Virus record (IMG/VR): IMGVR_UViG_3300012001_000009
Coordinates: 1-64,000 of that record
Strand: one strand, 5' to 3'
Source: a virus
Length of the DNA: 64,000 bases
How positions within the stretch are numbered: the first letter of the stretch is position 1; each line of letters begins with the position of its first letter. The notes under the pieces are model-generated. The model ran no database searches. It worked only from the letters and a program-made list of their open reading frames with translations, and was not told the origin of the DNA. Positions 3,040 through 25,512 of the stretch are shown one piece after another. Both the position numbers and the translations under genes were made by a program.

Positions 3040-4026
3040 ATGGCAAAGCTTCCTGCTTCAGCCCTCTGGCACAATATACCAGAGGAACTAAAAGCCCTAC
3101 CCCAATGGCTACTAGGCCGTGCTGACAAAACAGGCGCATTAAAAATACCAACATCAATCACTGCAGGAGGCAAGTTTTGTGCAGGGAGTAGCACCGATCC
3201 AAAGACTTGGTTGACCTTTGAGGCGGCTGTAGAGGCTGCTAGAAAGCACAATTATTCCATCGGTTTCGTATTGTGCAAAGATGATCCGTTTTGCGTAATC
3301 GATCTGGACGTTAAAAATGTTTTCAATGAAGCAGATAAAGAAAAATGGACGGACCAGGAAACGCTAGATCGCTATGAACGCCTCGTAGGAGCCTTTAACA
3401 GCTACAGCGAGCGGTCGCTATCGGGTCATGGTACTCATATCTGGATCATAGCAAACATTGGACTAGGGGCGCGTAGGGACGGCGTAGAGGTATATTCGCA
3501 AGAACGGTTCATCGTATGCACAGGCCGCATTATCGAGCATCTTCCGATAGCTGACCAGCAAGACATGATAAACAGTTTTGTGGCTGAAATGCACCGGGAT
3601 CAAATATCTCCGCTTGCACTCGTTGACAATCTACAGACCGAAGAGGACGAGGTTATACTCGAACGCGCTGCCAACGCGAGCAACGGCGACAAATTCATGG
3701 GATTGTGGAATTCTACTTGCAGCGAGGAAATTCCAGGAACCAATACAAAGCAGCTTGGCACGTTCGCAGAATACGGCTATGAGTCGCAGAGTGAGGCTGA
3801 CTACGCGCTAATGTCGATGCTCACCTTCTACAGCAAATCCAATGACCAATGCAAACGACTGTTCCGAATGTCGGGGTTGGGCAAACGTGCGAAGGCAACT
3901 AAGAATGACCGATACCTCAAGACGACCCTCGAATGGATTCGATCCCGCGAGGCGATGGAAAGCACTGCCCAAGCGAATGTAAAAATAAACCTGAGTAACC
4001 AGGTAAAAAAAGCAATAGCGTTTTAG
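3040..4026 (+). CDS. primase-polymerase domain protein (zero-frame product)
   Basis: A 328-aa protein of the phage and plasmid primase-polymerase type. Residues 80-165 hold the core: the metal-binding pair IDLD (Asp88, Asp90), the SLSGHGTHIW segment (His130), and VYSQERFIVCTGR, as in NrS-1-like prim-pols. The C-terminal part (about 240-310) resembles the helical bundle that follows this domain. It is expected to make primers at the fork. The reading frame ends at TAG 4024-4026, shortly after an A-AAA-AAA heptamer. A -1 shift there would join it to the DUF3987 helicase that follows, giving 809 aa, the architecture usually seen as one protein. Confidence 0.85.
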   Translation: MAKLPASALWHNIPEELKALPQWLLGRADKTGALKIPTSITAGGKFCAGSSTDPKTWLTFEAAVEAARKHNYSIGFVLCKDDPFCVIDLDVKNVFNEADKEKWTDQETLDRYERLVGAFNSYSERSLSGHGTHIWIIANIGLGARRDGVEVYSQERFIVCTGRIIEHLPIADQQDMINSFVAEMHRDQISPLALVDNLQTEEDEVILERAANASNGDKFMGLWNSTCSEEIPGTNTKQLGTFAEYGYESQSEADYALMSMLTFYSKSNDQCKRLFRMSGLGKRAKATKNDRYLKTTLEWIRSREAMESTAQANVKINLSNQVKKAIAF

Positions 4027-4070: not shown

Positions 4071-5468
4071 TCTAAAATTATTTTACCACCACCGCATAAG
4101 CAGTTAAAGCTGCCTCCGATTGATTGGCCACCTGGATTCACAGGAGAGATTGCGAAATTCATTTTTAATAGCTCGGTGCTGCCAGTTAAAGAGGTGTCCA
4201 TAGTCGCAGCTATCGGGTTCATTGCAGGCATATGTGGTAAGGCTTACAACATACCTCAATCAGGGCTAAACGTCTACATGATTCTGGTTGGACTTTCTGG
4301 CATAGGTAAGGAGGCAATGCATACAGGGACGAGGTTCCTTATAAACGCAGTATGCAAACATTTGCCAGAGGCGTCAGTGTTCTTGGATTCTAAAGTTTAT
4401 GTATCTGGTGCTGCACTCATGAAAGCTGTTTTAGCCAATCCTAGTTTTGTCAACGTGATAGGCGAGTTTGGCCACACTCTAAAACGCATCGCAGAAAATC
4501 GAAATAGTGATACCAACATCCAGCAGCTTCGGGCAGTGATAACAAACCTGTATCAGAAAAGCGGAGCAGCATCTGAAGCAGGCGGGCTAGGGTACTCAGA
4601 CACCACGCAGAACGTCGAATCAGTCTCCGGGGTAGCGTACTCTATGATCGGCGAAACGACGCCAGCAAAGTTCTATGAATCGTTGAATCCGTCAGTTATG
4701 GAGGACGGGTTCCTTAGCCGATTTACGATAATCGAGTGCCCGAAAGACAGACCTGAATTGGTAGAGGAGCCAGTTACCGATCCTGATGAAAGTATGCTTA
4801 GTTATCTATGCGGCATATGTTCGCAGTCTTTACAGCTGATCGCCAAGAATAATGTGGAAATGGTCGTTGAGGATTCAGCCGCCAAAACACTTTTTCAGAA
4901 TTTTAACAAAGAGTGCAGAACGAATATAAACGCGAGCGAAGAGGATTCGCAACGCCAAATGTGGAATCGGGCTCACTTGAAGGCGAAACGAATGGCCGCA
5001 TTGTTTGCAGTAGCTGATAACCCATTCAGCCCAACCATAACTTTTGAACATGCTCAATACGCCATCAATCTAGTCTATCGAGATATCTCTATTATGGGTC
5101 GCCACATCATCACGGGCGACGTAGGGACTGGCGACGATGCGCGGGAACGGAAAATCCTATCGGTAATGTCTAGTTATCTATCCAGGCCTTATGAAGGTAA
5201 CGACGACAAGGTTAAGGTGCTGCATGACGACGGGTTGGTTACAAGGGCATACATTCAGCAATGTACCAACAATATAAAATCCTTTAGAGACCATCCTATG
5301 CAATCGTCGGCCGCACTGACAATCGCCATCAAGAGTCTCGAGGAGAATGGCCATATAAAAGAATTCGACAAAATGAAGCTTAACGTTAAATATGGCTTCA
5401 CTGGTAAATGTTACCAGTTGATAAAATTACCAGAAGTGGTAAATAAAACCAAGTTGAAAATGGTTTAG
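4011..5468 (+). CDS. DUF3987-type helicase part of the frameshifted primase-helicase
   Basis: This frame encodes 485 aa if entered by a -1 shift at 4011. It is open from 3999, with no ATG before 4198 and no Shine-Dalgarno near GTG 4176, which would be the first plausible internal start. Coding clearly begins upstream of 4176: WPPGFTGEIAKFIF and PVKEVSIVAAIGFIAGICG fit the DUF3987 N-terminus. The Walker A motif is GLSGIGKEA (about residue 418 of the fusion), and VNVIGEFG follows. DUF3987 proteins are P-loop replicative helicase-like ATPases found next to or fused with prim-pol domains, so the joined product is predicted to act as a primase-helicase. Confidence 0.8.
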   Translation, partial: SNSVLAGGQPQPPLWLVAKTSKIILPPPHKQLKLPPIDWPPGFTGEIAKFIFNSSVLPVKEVSIVAAIGFIAGICGKAYNIPQSGLNVYMILVGLSGIGKEAMHTGTRFLINAVCKHLPEASVFLDSKVYVSGAALMKAVLANPSFVNVIGEFGHTLKRIAENRNSDTNIQQLRAVITNLYQKSGAASEAGGLGYSDTTQNVESVSGVAYSMIGETTPAKFYESLNPSVMEDGFLSRFTIIECPKDRPELVEEPVTDPDESMLSYLCGICSQSLQLIAKNNVEMVVEDSAAKTLFQNFNKECRTNINASEEDSQRQMWNRAHLKAKRMAALFAVADNPFSPTITFEHAQYAINLVYRDISIMGRHIITGDVGTGDDARERKILSVMSSYLSRPYEGNDDKVKVLHDDGLVTRAYIQQCTNNIKSFRDHPMQSSAALTIAIKSLEENGHIKEFDKMKLNVKYGFTGKCYQLIKLPEVVNKTKLKMV

Positions 5469-5510: not shown

Positions 5511-5906
5511 ATGGAATTCATGCTAGTACCTGCCAGAGTACAAGCCAATGCAGAGATACTTACCCAGCAATGTCATGGACTCGCCAAGCACTGCGGTTGG
5601 TGGACTGATTTGAAAACTGGCGAAAGCAACGCCGGCAAAAAGAATATCCCGGAACTGCTATGCTTGATTCATAGCGAAATCAGCGAGGGGATGGAAGGGT
5701 ATCGCAAGAACCTGATGGACGACAAGCTGCCCCATCGACCCATGCTTGAAGTCGAATTGGCGGATGCAGTGATTCGCATTTTCGACATGGCGGGCGGTCT
5801 CAATCTTGACGTTGCAGGCGCCATCGCTGAAAAGCTGCAATACAATGCCAATCGCGAAGATCACAAGTTGGAAAACCGGCGAGGGGAACACGGCAAAAAG
5901 TTTTAA
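5511..5906 (+). CDS. MazG-like nucleotide pyrophosphohydrolase
   Basis: A 131-aa protein with all-alpha MazG features: EISEGMEGYR supplies the E-x-x-E type metal ligands, and ELADAVIRIFDMAG supplies the E-x-x-D motif. Members of this phage MazG-like group are expected to hydrolyse nucleoside triphosphates to monophosphates; roles in cleaning the nucleotide pool or lowering alarmone have been proposed. GGAG is well placed before ATG 5511. It ends the primase operon and is followed by the long gene-free region. Confidence 0.85.
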   Translation: MEFMLVPARVQANAEILTQQCHGLAKHCGWWTDLKTGESNAGKKNIPELLCLIHSEISEGMEGYRKNLMDDKLPHRPMLEVELADAVIRIFDMAGGLNLDVAGAIAEKLQYNANREDHKLENRRGEHGKKF

Positions 5907-6404
5907 CCGCTGTCCTGCTTCAGAGTTTTAGGCAGGGGATTGACCGGCCAAGCGGTCACCAGTTTTAAGTATTTTCCTCCTGGTAGCGTGCTGCATATTT
6001 AGACAGATAGCTATTTGGATATTTAGTAAGCATTCTGTGGATGCTGTCCCAATCCAGTAAGGGCCAGACCGAAGGTGGACAGGTAATTGCGGACTAGCAT
6101 ACAGTCCAGGAGCCACTTAAACATGCCGCCGCGCTATTAGTGGCGTAATTAACAATAGCAGCATACGCCGCGAAGTCTCCTTGACCTCAAAGCAAATAGC
6201 CATACTAAGTTTTGCGTGGGTGCAAAATGGAAGTCTTTTGACGAGTGGCGAAATAACTTTGAGTAGGCGCGGTGAGTATGCAACACGAGGAAGCCATACC
6301 TAGAATCGCTTTCTAACTATTTATCTAGGGCCTCGAATTGGGTATCAAGGCAGTGGCACATGAGTACCCCAATGACCTTAACCTGCGCCGGGTTAGTGCG
6401 CAGG

Positions 6405-6542
6405 ACCAACATTTGAACACCTTTTAGGTTCAGCAATAGGCAAATATGCTTGATCTCATTTTTCAATGACTAGAAAGCTGAGTTACTAGGCTAACATACA
6501 GGGATACAGGGGTAACCTGTAGTAAGGTGTTCAAATGTTGGT
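6405..6542. repeat. 19-bp perfect inverted repeat enclosing 100 bases
   Basis: The arm 6405-6423 (ACCAACATTTGAACACCTT) is the exact reverse complement of 6524-6542. The enclosed 100 bases hold at least one more hairpin (6505-6521). In RNA this makes a long closing helix; in DNA it could be a small inverted-repeat element or a protein-binding site near an origin. Confidence 0.9.
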
Positions 6543-6599
6543 AGTCCTAAAATCCTTGTCTGGAATCACGCGCCCGACGTTCATAGCGGGACTACCAAC
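6537..6599 (+). promoter_or_regulatory. 11-bp inverted repeat competing with the upstream helix, just before a gene
   Basis: GTTGGTAGTCC (6537-6547) pairs with GGACTACCAAC (6589-6599). Six bases of its left arm (6537-6542) also belong to the 19-bp helix with 6405-6423, so full versions of both helices cannot form together. The right arm ends eight bases before the AAAGGAG ribosome binding site of the 6620 gene. This is the arrangement of a folding switch, though no ligand or family is recognised. Confidence 0.45.
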
Positions 6600-6619
6600 A
6601 AACTATAAAGGAGCTAGTA

Positions 6620-6844
6620 ATGGTTAAGCCAGTAATACCTTACGTTCTTCAAAACGGAAAAGTAATATTTCCTATGGAGTATTGCTTAACTTGCTCCCCT
6701 CCTATCGACAGCGAAAAGGTTAAAATCCTGAGAGATAAAAATAAGATTATGGGCGATTGGGCATTCGCTAGATACTGCGCCAAACGCCATGTGCCCTTTG
6801 ACATGTGCTATGTAATTATTTTCAATCGCAAGCCGAGGATTTAG
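6620..6844 (+). CDS. hypothetical protein, 74 aa
   Basis: A strong AAAGGAG lies at 6607-6613 before ATG 6620. The protein contains four cysteines (YCLTCSPP, RYCAK, DMCYV) and several basic residues. No family is recognised. It is a single gene between the structured gene-free region and the next promoter, so its expression may depend on that region. Confidence 0.65.
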   Translation: MVKPVIPYVLQNGKVIFPMEYCLTCSPPIDSEKVKILRDKNKIMGDWAFARYCAKRHVPFDMCYVIIFNRKPRI

Positions 6845-14039: not shown

Positions 14040-14834
14040 ATGTCAACCGCCGCAAAAATCCCTACCCCTGCCGAAGCCAAAGCCGCTGCTGTCGCCAAGA
14101 AAGCTGAAGAAGCCAAGTTGGCCGCCAAGGCAAAAGCCGATGCCGCTGCTGCCGTCGTTGCTGCCAAAGCCAAGAAAGATGCTGAAGCTAAAGCCGCTGC
14201 TGACGCCAAAGCAAAAGTCGCCGCTGCCGAAAAAGCAGCCAAGGAAAAAGCTGAAGCTGACGCCAAGGCAGTTGCAGCTAAAGAAGCTGCCAAGAAAGCC
14301 ACCGCTGACGCGAAGGCCGCTGCCGATAAGGTGAAAGCTGAAGCCAAGGTCGCATCGGAAAAAGCCAAAGCTGAAGCCAAGGTCGCATCGGAAAAAGCCA
14401 AAGCTGAAGCCGATAAGGTGAAAGCTGAAGCCAAGGCCGCATCGGAAAAAGCCAAGGCTGAAGCTGATAAGGTGAAAGCTGAAGCCAAGGTCGCTGCCGA
14501 GAAGGTGAAGTCGGACGCCAAAGCAGAACGCGAAGCAAAAGCAAAAGCCAAAGCTGAAGCTGCCGCCGAAAAAGCGGCCAAGAAAACTGATCCAGTTATC
14601 GAGAACGGCATCCGGCATCCGCAGCTTGAAAGCAAATGCGGAATTATCTGGGCTATCGCTGACAAGCTGACCGCCGACATGGGTAGCACTGTGCCCTGGT
14701 CTGTCCTGATCGCCGAAACCAGCAAGGACCCTGATATTGCTCCCGGCACCGTGTTCACTGAATACGGCCGCTGGAGGAAATTCCACGGCGTCACCGGCCG
14801 CATCGTTGTCGCAAAAGAAGCTGCTGCCGCGTAA
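14040..14834 (+). CDS. Lys/Ala-rich histone H1-like protein with C-terminal globular domain, 264 aa
   Basis: Residues 1-190 consist almost wholly of Ala, Lys, Glu and Asp in imperfect tandem repeats (AKAEADKVKAEAKVASEK type), predicted as a long charged helix or coiled coil. The DNA shows repeat units near 33 bases between 14330 and 14500. Residues 195-264 are a separate domain (NGIRHPQLESKCGIIWAIAD, TVFTEYGRWRKFHG), which I have seen as a pattern in phage proteins of unknown role. The composition suggests DNA or RNA coating, like H1 tails or TolA-like stalks. It has its own promoter and terminator. Confidence 0.7.
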   Translation: MSTAAKIPTPAEAKAAAVAKKAEEAKLAAKAKADAAAAVVAAKAKKDAEAKAAADAKAKVAAAEKAAKEKAEADAKAVAAKEAAKKATADAKAAADKVKAEAKVASEKAKAEAKVASEKAKAEADKVKAEAKAASEKAKAEADKVKAEAKVAAEKVKSDAKAEREAKAKAKAEAAAEKAAKKTDPVIENGIRHPQLESKCGIIWAIADKLTADMGSTVPWSVLIAETSKDPDIAPGTVFTEYGRWRKFHGVTGRIVVAKEAAAA

Positions 14835-14880: not shown

Positions 14881-14906
14881 TATTGGGTCTAAAACAAGGA
14901 TACCCC

Positions 14907-15653
14907 ATGCTAAATCCATTTCCGAGTTATCTAAATAAGCAACCCATCGAAAAGCGAACCAACCTTTACGAGGGAACGTTTTTGGATGTACATTCGATTT
15001 TTTATACCATCCAGGGTGAAGGTCCTTTTGTGGGACGACCAGCCATTTTCATTCGACTGGCTGGATGCAATCTGCAATGCCCTGGATGCGATACTGATTA
15101 CACTAGCGGGCGGCATATTTATTCAGTCGATATGGTTGTGGACCGGGTTCGTCTTGTAACACCCAGCCATAGGGATGCTAGAGGTAGAATGCTTGTGGTG
15201 ATTACAGGTGGCGAGCCGTTCCGACAGAACTTGACACCGTTAATAAAGGATTTGCGTCTATGTTTGTATGATGTGCAAATCGAGACAAACGGCACGCTTG
15301 CTCCGTATAATCCAGAGATATATGAAAACAGCCGTATCACCACCATCGTATGCAGCCCTAAAGCCGGCAAGATTCATCCGAAGCTGGAGCCGCTTATCGA
15401 TGCATACAAATACGTATTGAGCGCCGACAGCGTGGATTCTGAGGACGGCTTGCCGGTGTTAGCGCTTGGCCACACTGCCTCGCCTCGAGTCGCAAGACCT
15501 CGCGCAGGATTTATAGGCCCCGTCTATCTTCAACCGATGGACTCTGGTGACGAGGACACCAATCGGCGAAATCTAAAAGCTGTAATTGATAGCGCAATGC
15601 GATACAATTTTATTGTATGTCTACAATTACACAAAATCATTGGAATGGAGTAA
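14907..15653 (+). CDS. queE: 7-carboxy-7-deazaguanine synthase (QueE)
   Basis: Radical SAM enzyme that converts 6-carboxytetrahydropterin to 7-carboxy-7-deazaguanine, the third step towards preQ0. The 248-aa protein has the family start SIFYTIQGEGPFVGRPAIFI and the cluster motif CNLQCPGC (Cys54, Cys58, Cys61), in the C-x3-C-x2-C form. VITGGEPFRQ (SAM-binding GGE) and VQIETNGT follow, as in QueE. ATG 14907 has AAGGA upstream; an in-frame TTG at 14883 falls in the terminator tail. It opens an operon with queC four bases downstream. Confidence 0.95.
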   Translation: MLNPFPSYLNKQPIEKRTNLYEGTFLDVHSIFYTIQGEGPFVGRPAIFIRLAGCNLQCPGCDTDYTSGRHIYSVDMVVDRVRLVTPSHRDARGRMLVVITGGEPFRQNLTPLIKDLRLCLYDVQIETNGTLAPYNPEIYENSRITTIVCSPKAGKIHPKLEPLIDAYKYVLSADSVDSEDGLPVLALGHTASPRVARPRAGFIGPVYLQPMDSGDEDTNRRNLKAVIDSAMRYNFIVCLQLHKIIGME

Positions 15654-15656
15654 TCT

Positions 15657-16421
15657 ATGCGTAAAGCCTTAGTGGTATTAAGTGGTGGTCAGGACAGCAC
15701 CACCGCTTTGTTCTGGGCCAAAGAACATTTTGAGGAAGTGCATGCCATAACGTTTAATTATGGCCAGCTGCATATTATCGAAGTCAACGCGGCTATGAAA
15801 GTAGCCAAGATGGCTGGGGTGGCCTCGCATGAAATCATTCATGTGCCGCATTGTCTGGTTAGCACTAGCCCTCTGATTACCCACACTGATTTGGAACGAT
15901 ATGCGGATCATCGGGAAATGGAACGCATCATTGGTGGACGGGTTGAAAAGACATTTGTGCCAATGCGTAATGCGTTTTTCTTTGTTATCGCCATGAATCA
16001 CGCTGTGGCGCTCGGCAGCTATGATCTGGTTACAGGGGTTTGCCAAGAGGACAATGCGAACTATCCCGATTGCACCGAAACATTCGTTAATCGATTCATT
16101 TCCATGACAAATGCATCCATGGGAGCAGCGACTAACGAGTTCTATATCCATGCGCCGCTAATGCACCTAACGAAAGCGGAAACTGTTCGCATGTCCGCAG
16201 GTATGCCAGAATGCTGGAAGGCGCTTGCATACACACATACAAGCTACGATGGCATATATCCGCCGAATGACCACAACCACGCGAACATACTACGCGCTCA
16301 GGGCTTTCTTGAGGCGGGTTTTCCTGACCCCCTCGTTGTTCGCGCATGGAAAGAAGGGCTGATGGAGCTTCCGATTAGTGACAACTATGCCATCCTTTTA
16401 AATCAATCGCCAAAAGGGTGA
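15657..16421 (+). CDS. queC: 7-cyano-7-deazaguanine synthase (QueC), zinc-site variant
   Basis: ATP-dependent enzyme turning 7-carboxy-7-deazaguanine and ammonia into preQ0. The PP-loop SGGQDSTT (9-16), NYGQLH, FVPMRNAFF and TGVCQEDNANYPDC are all present, at normal length (254 aa). The zinc site is not: the usual TCYNG plus CGxCxxC is here TSYDG (Ser196) and NDHNHAN (Asn204, Asn207, Asn210), so all four ligand cysteines are replaced while the flanking LRAQGF is kept. His206, His208 and Asp205 might bind a metal instead. The rest of the protein shows no decay. Confidence 0.93.
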   Translation: MRKALVVLSGGQDSTTALFWAKEHFEEVHAITFNYGQLHIIEVNAAMKVAKMAGVASHEIIHVPHCLVSTSPLITHTDLERYADHREMERIIGGRVEKTFVPMRNAFFFVIAMNHAVALGSYDLVTGVCQEDNANYPDCTETFVNRFISMTNASMGAATNEFYIHAPLMHLTKAETVRMSAGMPECWKALAYTHTSYDGIYPPNDHNHANILRAQGFLEAGFPDPLVVRAWKEGLMELPISDNYAILLNQSPKG

Positions 16422-24913: not shown

Positions 24914-25512
24914 TACAGATCCATTGAATGATCCCGTAAAGGTTCCAGATTGTCGTCAGCAGGCGCGGCGCTGATAGCGTACCAATCTTCAGTATGCACA
25001 AAATCAAGGAACGGCAATATAGTCAACGGGACCATTGGTACAGCATCGTTTCTGTTCCTGAAAGAGATATGCTTTACACCAGATTTTTCTAAAATCCTTC
25101 TAAGGTTTGGAAACCCTGGTTTTGGCGATCCGAACACGCAAACGATATCAAACGGAAGTTTGTTGTAAGCGAATAGGCCTGCTAAAATTCTAGCTCTAGC
25201 GCCTCCAAGAGAATGCCCCGTTATAACCACATGCTCGCCTACGATTGTTCGGGCTTTCGCAAACACCTCGTCCATATCGTGCAAGAAGCCTGCGTGGCAG
25301 AATCCTAGCTGCGGATGCCATTGGGGAATCGCGGTAAAGTCATGCATCCAATCGTCAAGGTCCGCTGACCCCCTTAGAGCTATAACATCGATCCCGCCAA
25401 CGTTAGCATGTCCGAACACTACGCAGCCGACTTCGTAGGTGTTCACAAACATTCCAGCTGGAACAGGGTCATAGATCCCTCTGGCAAATGCGCAAATTGC
25501 GTGTGGTGTCAT
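24889..25512 (-). CDS. class 3 lipase-like hydrolase in the lysis cassette
   Basis: A 207-aa alpha/beta hydrolase. ALRGSADLDDWMHDF is the oxyanion-region motif of class 3 lipases, ITGHSLGGARA holds nucleophile Ser101, and Asp156 (RNDAVPMVP) and His195 (RDHSMDLY) complete a plausible triad. There is no signal peptide, so it would reach the envelope after holin action or inside the virion. It is the last gene of the - strand block, overlapping the previous gene by ATGA. It may attack host phospholipids during lysis, helping to open the outer membrane where no spanin pair was recognised. Confidence 0.8.
   Translation of the reverse strand: MTPHAICAFARGIYDPVPAGMFVNTYEVGCVVFGHANVGGIDVIALRGSADLDDWMHDFTAIPQWHPQLGFCHAGFLHDMDEVFAKARTIVGEHVVITGHSLGGARARILAGLFAYNKLPFDIVCVFGSPKPGFPNLRRILEKSGVKHISFRNRNDAVPMVPLTILPFLDFVHTEDWYAISAAPADDNLEPLRDHSMDLYYKGSPDA

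Follow-up and report, generated by a model that had tools for sequence, protein, structure and literature searches.

A conserved three-strand element, very probably a structured RNA, at the 3' end of the largest gene-free gap in a 64-kb viral sequence

Introduction

A long perfect helix in the leader is a feature of phage leaders processed by RNase III. The putative leader considered here also contains a long perfect helix, and its processing is hypothetical. Leaders of the riboswitch type, which act by strand exchange (PMC10907184), share with the element described below a position in the 5' leader and two mutually exclusive helices near the start codon. However, the present element has no known aptamer or ligand and is absent from Rfam, and its exchange would use a perfect 19-bp long-range helix. 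GOLLD and ROOL are large, hairpin-rich noncoding regions of phages (PMC12286853). The region studied here is likewise large, hairpin-rich, and noncoding, but it has no sequence or structure match to them, and its conserved part of about 220 nt adjoins a gene start.

We analysed a stretch of 64,000 nt (the window), which comprises positions 1 to 64,000 of a virus record of 71,988 bases (IMGVR_UViG_3300012001_000009). If our reading is right, a structured RNA with built-in strand exchange would be added to the replication genes of phages. It would also point to a second RNA module, carried by at least 145 deposited phage genomes and missing from Rfam 15.

Results and Discussion

The gene-free gap and its neighbours

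At 713 nt, the gap at 5907-6619 exceeds every other gene-free gap of the window, the runner-up being 379 nt, and its coding strand has no ORF of 60 aa or longer. A preliminary description, made from the letters alone, had singled the gap out as an exception in a densely coding genome, and these figures bear it out. The sole ATG/GTG/TTG ORF of at least 60 aa within the gap encodes 62 aa and runs on the minus strand. Neither a strong promoter nor a strong terminator was found in the gap, and when the region was compared with 50,697 phages by blastn, one 40-nt match was obtained, which was judged to be due to chance. The features of the gap and its neighbours are listed in Table 1. A search for relatives of the downstream 74-aa ORF found none.

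Since several stop-to-stop frames of 46-62 aa are open within the gap, the gap could be read as the leftover of a decayed protein gene, an outcome that the preliminary description had itself named as contrary to its proposal. However, four of the longer frames had no match in Pfam or PHROGs, and covariation of the RNA type was found instead (see below). We consider this reading extremely improbable.

The preliminary description had proposed a large RNA or an origin. The gap lies among primase, Sak4-like, and helicase genes, the order past the 74-aa ORF being Sak4-like, single-strand binding protein, Cas4-type exonuclease, and helicase, and this setting would suit an origin of replication or some other element acting as DNA. 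Nevertheless, the cumulative GC skew has no extremum at the gap (it peaks at 25,177 and is lowest where the window ends), neither DnaA-like boxes nor iterons were found in the region, the AT content is ordinary (53% vs 52%), and the G.U pairs described below are biased by strand. An origin is therefore very unlikely. Known large RNAs fared no better, since the Rfam covariance models gave no match with the window at the gathering score or with the region at E values up to 10. The candidates set aside in this way were GOLLD, ROOL, group I and group II introns, the T-box, and known riboswitches. tmRNA and tRNA were likewise unmatched by ARAGORN and Rfam, and a tag frame was not seen in the region. 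What stood of the proposal was a structured RNA, which is supported by a module recurring in a relative, by covariation, and by the G.U bias.

Some other features of the window were observed. The primase is split into two frames (3040-4026 and 4176-5468), which match two parts of phrog_3022, and a run of A (GTA AAA AAA GCA) lies near 4010, where a -1 shift would join both frames; the split reflects a programmed frameshift or else a mistake in assembly. Two genes at 14883-15653 and 15657-16421 were judged by eye to be QueE-like and QueC-like, suggesting 7-deazaguanine DNA modification. Phage MiCath has an annotated QueE and a Sak4-like gene related to that of the window. A 264-aa protein encoded at 14040-14834 consists mostly of Ala/Lys/Glu repeats.

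Table 1. Features of the gene-free gap and of the adjoining genes (window coordinates)
Feature	Position	Strand	Remark
Upstream gene, MazG-like pyrophosphatase (phrog_5658)	5511..5906	+	
Gene-free region separating the MazG-like gene from the 74-aa ORF, probably a 3'-structured leader	5907..6619	+	largest gap of the window
H0, 7-bp hairpin CCTGCGC/GCGCAGG	6382..6404	+	adjoins strand a
Strand a, ACCAACATTTGAACACCTT	6405..6423	+	
a-b loop, 100 nt	6424..6523	+	smaller hairpins; conserved sequence not found
Strand b, AAGGTGTTCAAATGTTGGT	6524..6542	+	partner is a (19 bp) or, through its 3' end, a'
5' strand of helix P1, TGTTGGTAGTCC	6536..6547	+	7 nt in common with strand b
Conserved core of module A, TTGTCTGGAATCACGCGCCCGA	6556..6577	+	between the P1 strands; one substitution in 22 bases in L007
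P2, possible small hairpin within P1, CCCG (6573-6576)/CGGG (6587-6590)	6573..6590	+	from sequence
Strand a', GGACTACCAACA	6589..6600	+	3' strand of P1
Shine-Dalgarno-like AAAGGAG of the 74-aa ORF	6607..6613	+	from sequence
Downstream 74-aa ORF without assigned function	6620..6844	+	located where relatives have the DUF7173 gene

Helices of the gap and anatomy of the element

Perfect helices with a stem of at least 5 bp inside 25 nt numbered 23 in the gap, a number that none of 150 dinucleotide shuffles (11.9 +/- 3.4) reached, so that small perfect hairpins are about twice as frequent as in the shuffles. Two helices with a stem of at least 10 bp inside 160 nt were present (19 bp and 12 bp), whereas 0.06 were expected in shuffles. 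The 19-bp dyad (6405-6423/6524-6542) is perfect; the maximum over 300 shuffles was 13 bp. Both the dense dyads and the long-range helix of the preliminary description thus held up. Beyond those listed there, we found a second partner for the 3' arm of the 19-bp helix, which makes a perfect 12-bp helix with 6589-6600 as well. The z-scores of the fold against shuffled sequence were -2.85 for the + strand and -3.55 for the - strand, and fold energy by itself therefore leaves the strand undecided.

The first 475 nt or so of the gap (5907-6381, the 5' two thirds) are hairpin-rich, and comparison gave neither a relative nor support for this part. As judged from the sequence comparisons below, the conserved portion is the last 220 nt or so, not all 713 nt.

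The core element (6382-6600) consists of hairpin H0 followed by the strands a, b, and a' in this order. P1 has 12 bp, since 6536-6547 is fully complementary to a' (6589-6600); in this longest form it includes the final two bases of P2. The same heptamer, ACCAACA, opens strand a and closes strand a'. The end of a' lies about 6-10 nt upstream of the AAAGGAG and 19 nt upstream of the ATG of the 74-aa ORF.

Relatives of the element

Relatives were gathered through proteins resembling the Sak4-like one, which yielded 42 viral loci. Among the fetched loci, L007 matched 93 nt at the 3' end of the region (blastn, E = 4e-7). It has the 65-nt module too, likewise placed after a pyrophosphohydrolase gene, and its long helix is unrelated in sequence to that of the window, yet again complementary. 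A model of the 65-nt module (R1), built from two sequences and searched against 50 whole virus records, found L007 only. The core 15-mer occurs in 106 other viral stretches; the enclosing helix is missing from all of those listed, the best score being 8.8 compared with 12.4 and 11.8. Core A is carried by two sequences only. Four matches to the core pattern (L085, L086, L087, and L139) were rejected because they lie inside coding sequence or lack the helix, and the one match in a genome contig, within a SURF1-like gene, was attributed to chance.

The a-b-a' layout recurs in seven more copies in six contigs, namely L010, L015, L027, L032, L045, and L007, the last with two in tandem. L010 and L015 were found by a layout scan, and L027, L031/L032, and L045 were added by inspection; L031 is near-identical to L032, one of the pair was used, and some loci are related. 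The gene downstream in the loci of the relatives is the DUF7173 gene (phrog_2480), and in six leaders a' lies 11-32 nt upstream of the ATG. An equivalent gene of phage MiCath carries the annotation of Gam host-nuclease inhibitor. The upstream gene is a pyrophosphohydrolase gene where checked (window, L007, and L010). Each of the seven leader loci examined has a hairpin adjoining strand a, and three unrelated stems occur among them; that of the relatives is GCACCC-GNAA-GGGTGC, and H0 of the window differs from it in sequence. L027 has a poor P1, and in L032 none is evident. Against mononucleotide shuffles, leaders with the element gave fold z-scores of -3.4 to -6.4, and most of those without it were weaker; the exception was L030 (z of -6.2), which has a long hairpin of its own.

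Two minor observations concern these leaders. In L030, the DUF7173 leader has an 18-bp hairpin of different sequence at 1918-1966. The sequence CCAGTGGGTnTTTGCCGAATAnATTGG is common to the a-b loops of L010, L027, L031, and L032 and absent from the window; it is possibly another interchangeable core.

Covariation and strand

For the covariation analysis, the excised arms of each locus were linked through GAAA. Over the first 16 pairs of a:b in eight elements, 96% of the cells were paired, and both sides had changed in 8 of the 16 pairs. The preliminary description had called for an alignment of relatives for compensating changes, and such changes are present in a:b. The covariation score was 0.571, compared with 0.201 for shuffles (0 of 500 as high), a comparison somewhat inflated by related rows, and with at most 0.118 when the arms were slid. 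In P1, both-side changes were found over seven elements at pair 6 (G-C, A-U, U-A), pair 7 (U-A, C-G), and pair 8 (A-U, G-C), each being supported by single sequences, one or two in number. Both of the mutually exclusive helices therefore carry both-side changes, more weakly in P1, where few sequences contribute.

RNA pairing tolerates G.U, and the image of a G.U pair on the opposite strand is an A.C mismatch. In the a:b helices, G.U outnumbered A.C by 5 to 1 in the leader set and by 38 to 7 in 26 loci of module B, a second phage RNA described below. Since G.U exceeds A.C, the sequences argue for pairing in the + strand RNA and not for a double-strand DNA element. These data establish the three-part a-b-a' anatomy, the strand, and that a:b covaries.

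The same helices could have arisen as a functionless cassette of inverted-duplication hairpins, in which strand a was newly copied from b in inverted orientation, so that phages differ from one another without compensating evolution. The perfect pairing of a:b over 19-20 bp in several loci, the unrelated inserts in the loops, and the short gap of the close relatives L005, L009, and L041, from which the element is missing at the same junction, would all fit such a cassette. However, the excess of G.U over A.C (38 to 7) is expected under selection on RNA pairing, and both the a' helix and the abutting hairpin have been kept. We regard the cassette as improbable. The element of the region is very likely a conserved structured RNA.

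Proposed mechanism

We propose that the region is transcribed as + strand RNA along with the replication genes, and that its last 220 nt or so act as a cis-acting three-strand element adjoining the start of the next gene. The 19-bp helix a:b would form first during transcription. Strand a' would emerge later and may capture the 3' end of b, through the 5-8 shared bases, to form P1 around the conserved core. The exchange from a to a' would then set the translation or the processing of the next gene. As in RNase III-processed phage leaders, a likely trigger would be RNase III cleaving the perfect 19-20 bp a:b helix; after such a cut just 5-8 bp would hold b to a, and b could pass to a'.

In the window, the full a:b helix and P1 with the inner part of a:b differ by a predicted 0.3 kcal/mol, and the two states are predicted to lie within 1 kcal/mol of each other in L007A, L015, and L188. 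However, a:b is predicted to be favoured by 5-26 kcal/mol in 6 of the 10 elements tested. Equal stability is thus not general, and this argues against a simple equilibrium switch.

Our overall explanation, a + strand three-strand leader by the start of the next gene with b changing its partner, has in our view about an even chance of being correct. The same balance applies to the cis-acting leader taken by itself, against which it counts that the next gene of the window differs from that of the relatives. The model of a switch, or of processing, through strand exchange is a more tentative part. It makes testable predictions as to which helix forms, whether RNase III cleaves, and whether the next gene depends on it.

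A second phage RNA with the same layout

The second element of L007 (1155-1402) has a core of its own, module B (L007:1275-1406), which matches at least 145 deposited phage records and more than 120 viral contigs. Its loci are L007, L088, L090-L095, and L096-L214; the carriers include phages of Klebsiella, E. coli, and Pseudomonas, and most loci are near tRNA, Q, or lysis genes. It is built of a closing helix, a GCGC hairpin, a variable arm, and a GCCGG hairpin, the loops of the two hairpins being complementary. The closing helix covaries strongly. Both-side changes were counted in 8 of 24 pairs. The putative loop-loop pairing is mostly invariant; in Cronobacter phage ENT47670 (L095), GTCGAT/ATCGAC replaces GCTGAT/ATCAGC. 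Rfam 15 has no family for module B, and no paper on its sequence or on the tag peptides given below was found in the open-licence literature. Since module-B phages are in culture (Bas77-80, D3), the question can be tested at the bench.

The 5' strand of the closing helix also pairs upstream, at 14 or more of 20 positions, in 26 of 110 module-B loci, and in 23% of the loci the best score observed lay above the 99th percentile of mismatched controls. The window element shares this layout with its shared strand b, and modules A and B stand in tandem in L007. The core of module B, by contrast, is formed by two hairpins with pairable loops and not by TTGTCTGGARTCACGCGCCCGA. A search of the window against 109 module-B flanks gave no sequence match, and no hairpin pair with complementary loops was found in the window region. 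The assignment of the window element to module B was rejected, since neither the GTGAATGCGCAGGCTGATGYGC hairpin nor a partner with a complementary loop is present. Because the window lacks module B, it is linked to that RNA by the layout and by L007, which has both modules, and not by sequence.

Module B also bears on another reading, in which the region is a free-standing structured noncoding RNA, similar in kind to GOLLD or ROOL, that acts in trans or in an RNA assembly and lies near a gene incidentally. The length of 713 nt and the dense hairpins would suit it. So would the a-b-a' layout of module B, the intrinsic terminator found within 90 nt past module B in 22 of 112 loci (4 in the control), and the consensus-like promoter at module B of Klebsiella phage KP591P1 (L090). 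In the window and its relatives, however, the element adjoins the ribosome-binding site of a gene and lacks the terminator that often ends module B. Moreover, the remainder of the 713 nt is not conserved, and Rfam gave no match. We consider a free-standing RNA unlikely and prefer the cis-acting leader, because the element lies directly upstream of the start codon. As a tentative proposal, somewhat short of an even chance, a single undescribed superfamily of modular phage RNAs may include, as variants, the element of the window, the related leaders, and module B of lambdoid and other phages. Its members would be built on the shared-strand (a-b-a') joint with cores that can be interchanged, and some phages would add pieces resembling tRNA and a tag frame like that of tmRNA.

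Frames resembling the tag frame of tmRNA were observed upstream of module B, after a conserved AAACTGACCACAAAGATAAAT, in L090 (1268), L092 (1308), L094 (1307), L099, L109, L118, L128, L147, L150, and L151, and read ANEEMYLAVA*, ANDNTFLAVA*, ANDDVVLMAA*, ANDEQFLAVA*, and ANDDLMLMAA*. At these loci the Rfam tmRNA models scored below threshold only, and ARAGORN called no tmRNA. The tag-bearing stretch in a prophage of E. coli O26 RM8426 (L336:2126-3197) is unannotated and is flanked by antitermination protein Q and a holin, and query pieces of L094 matched 171 of 5,426 complete E. coli genomes. Pieces of tRNA resembling the T arm (e.g., GGGTTCGAGTCCC) were present in the variable arms by module B in L090, L099, L121, L131, L138, L160, and L206.
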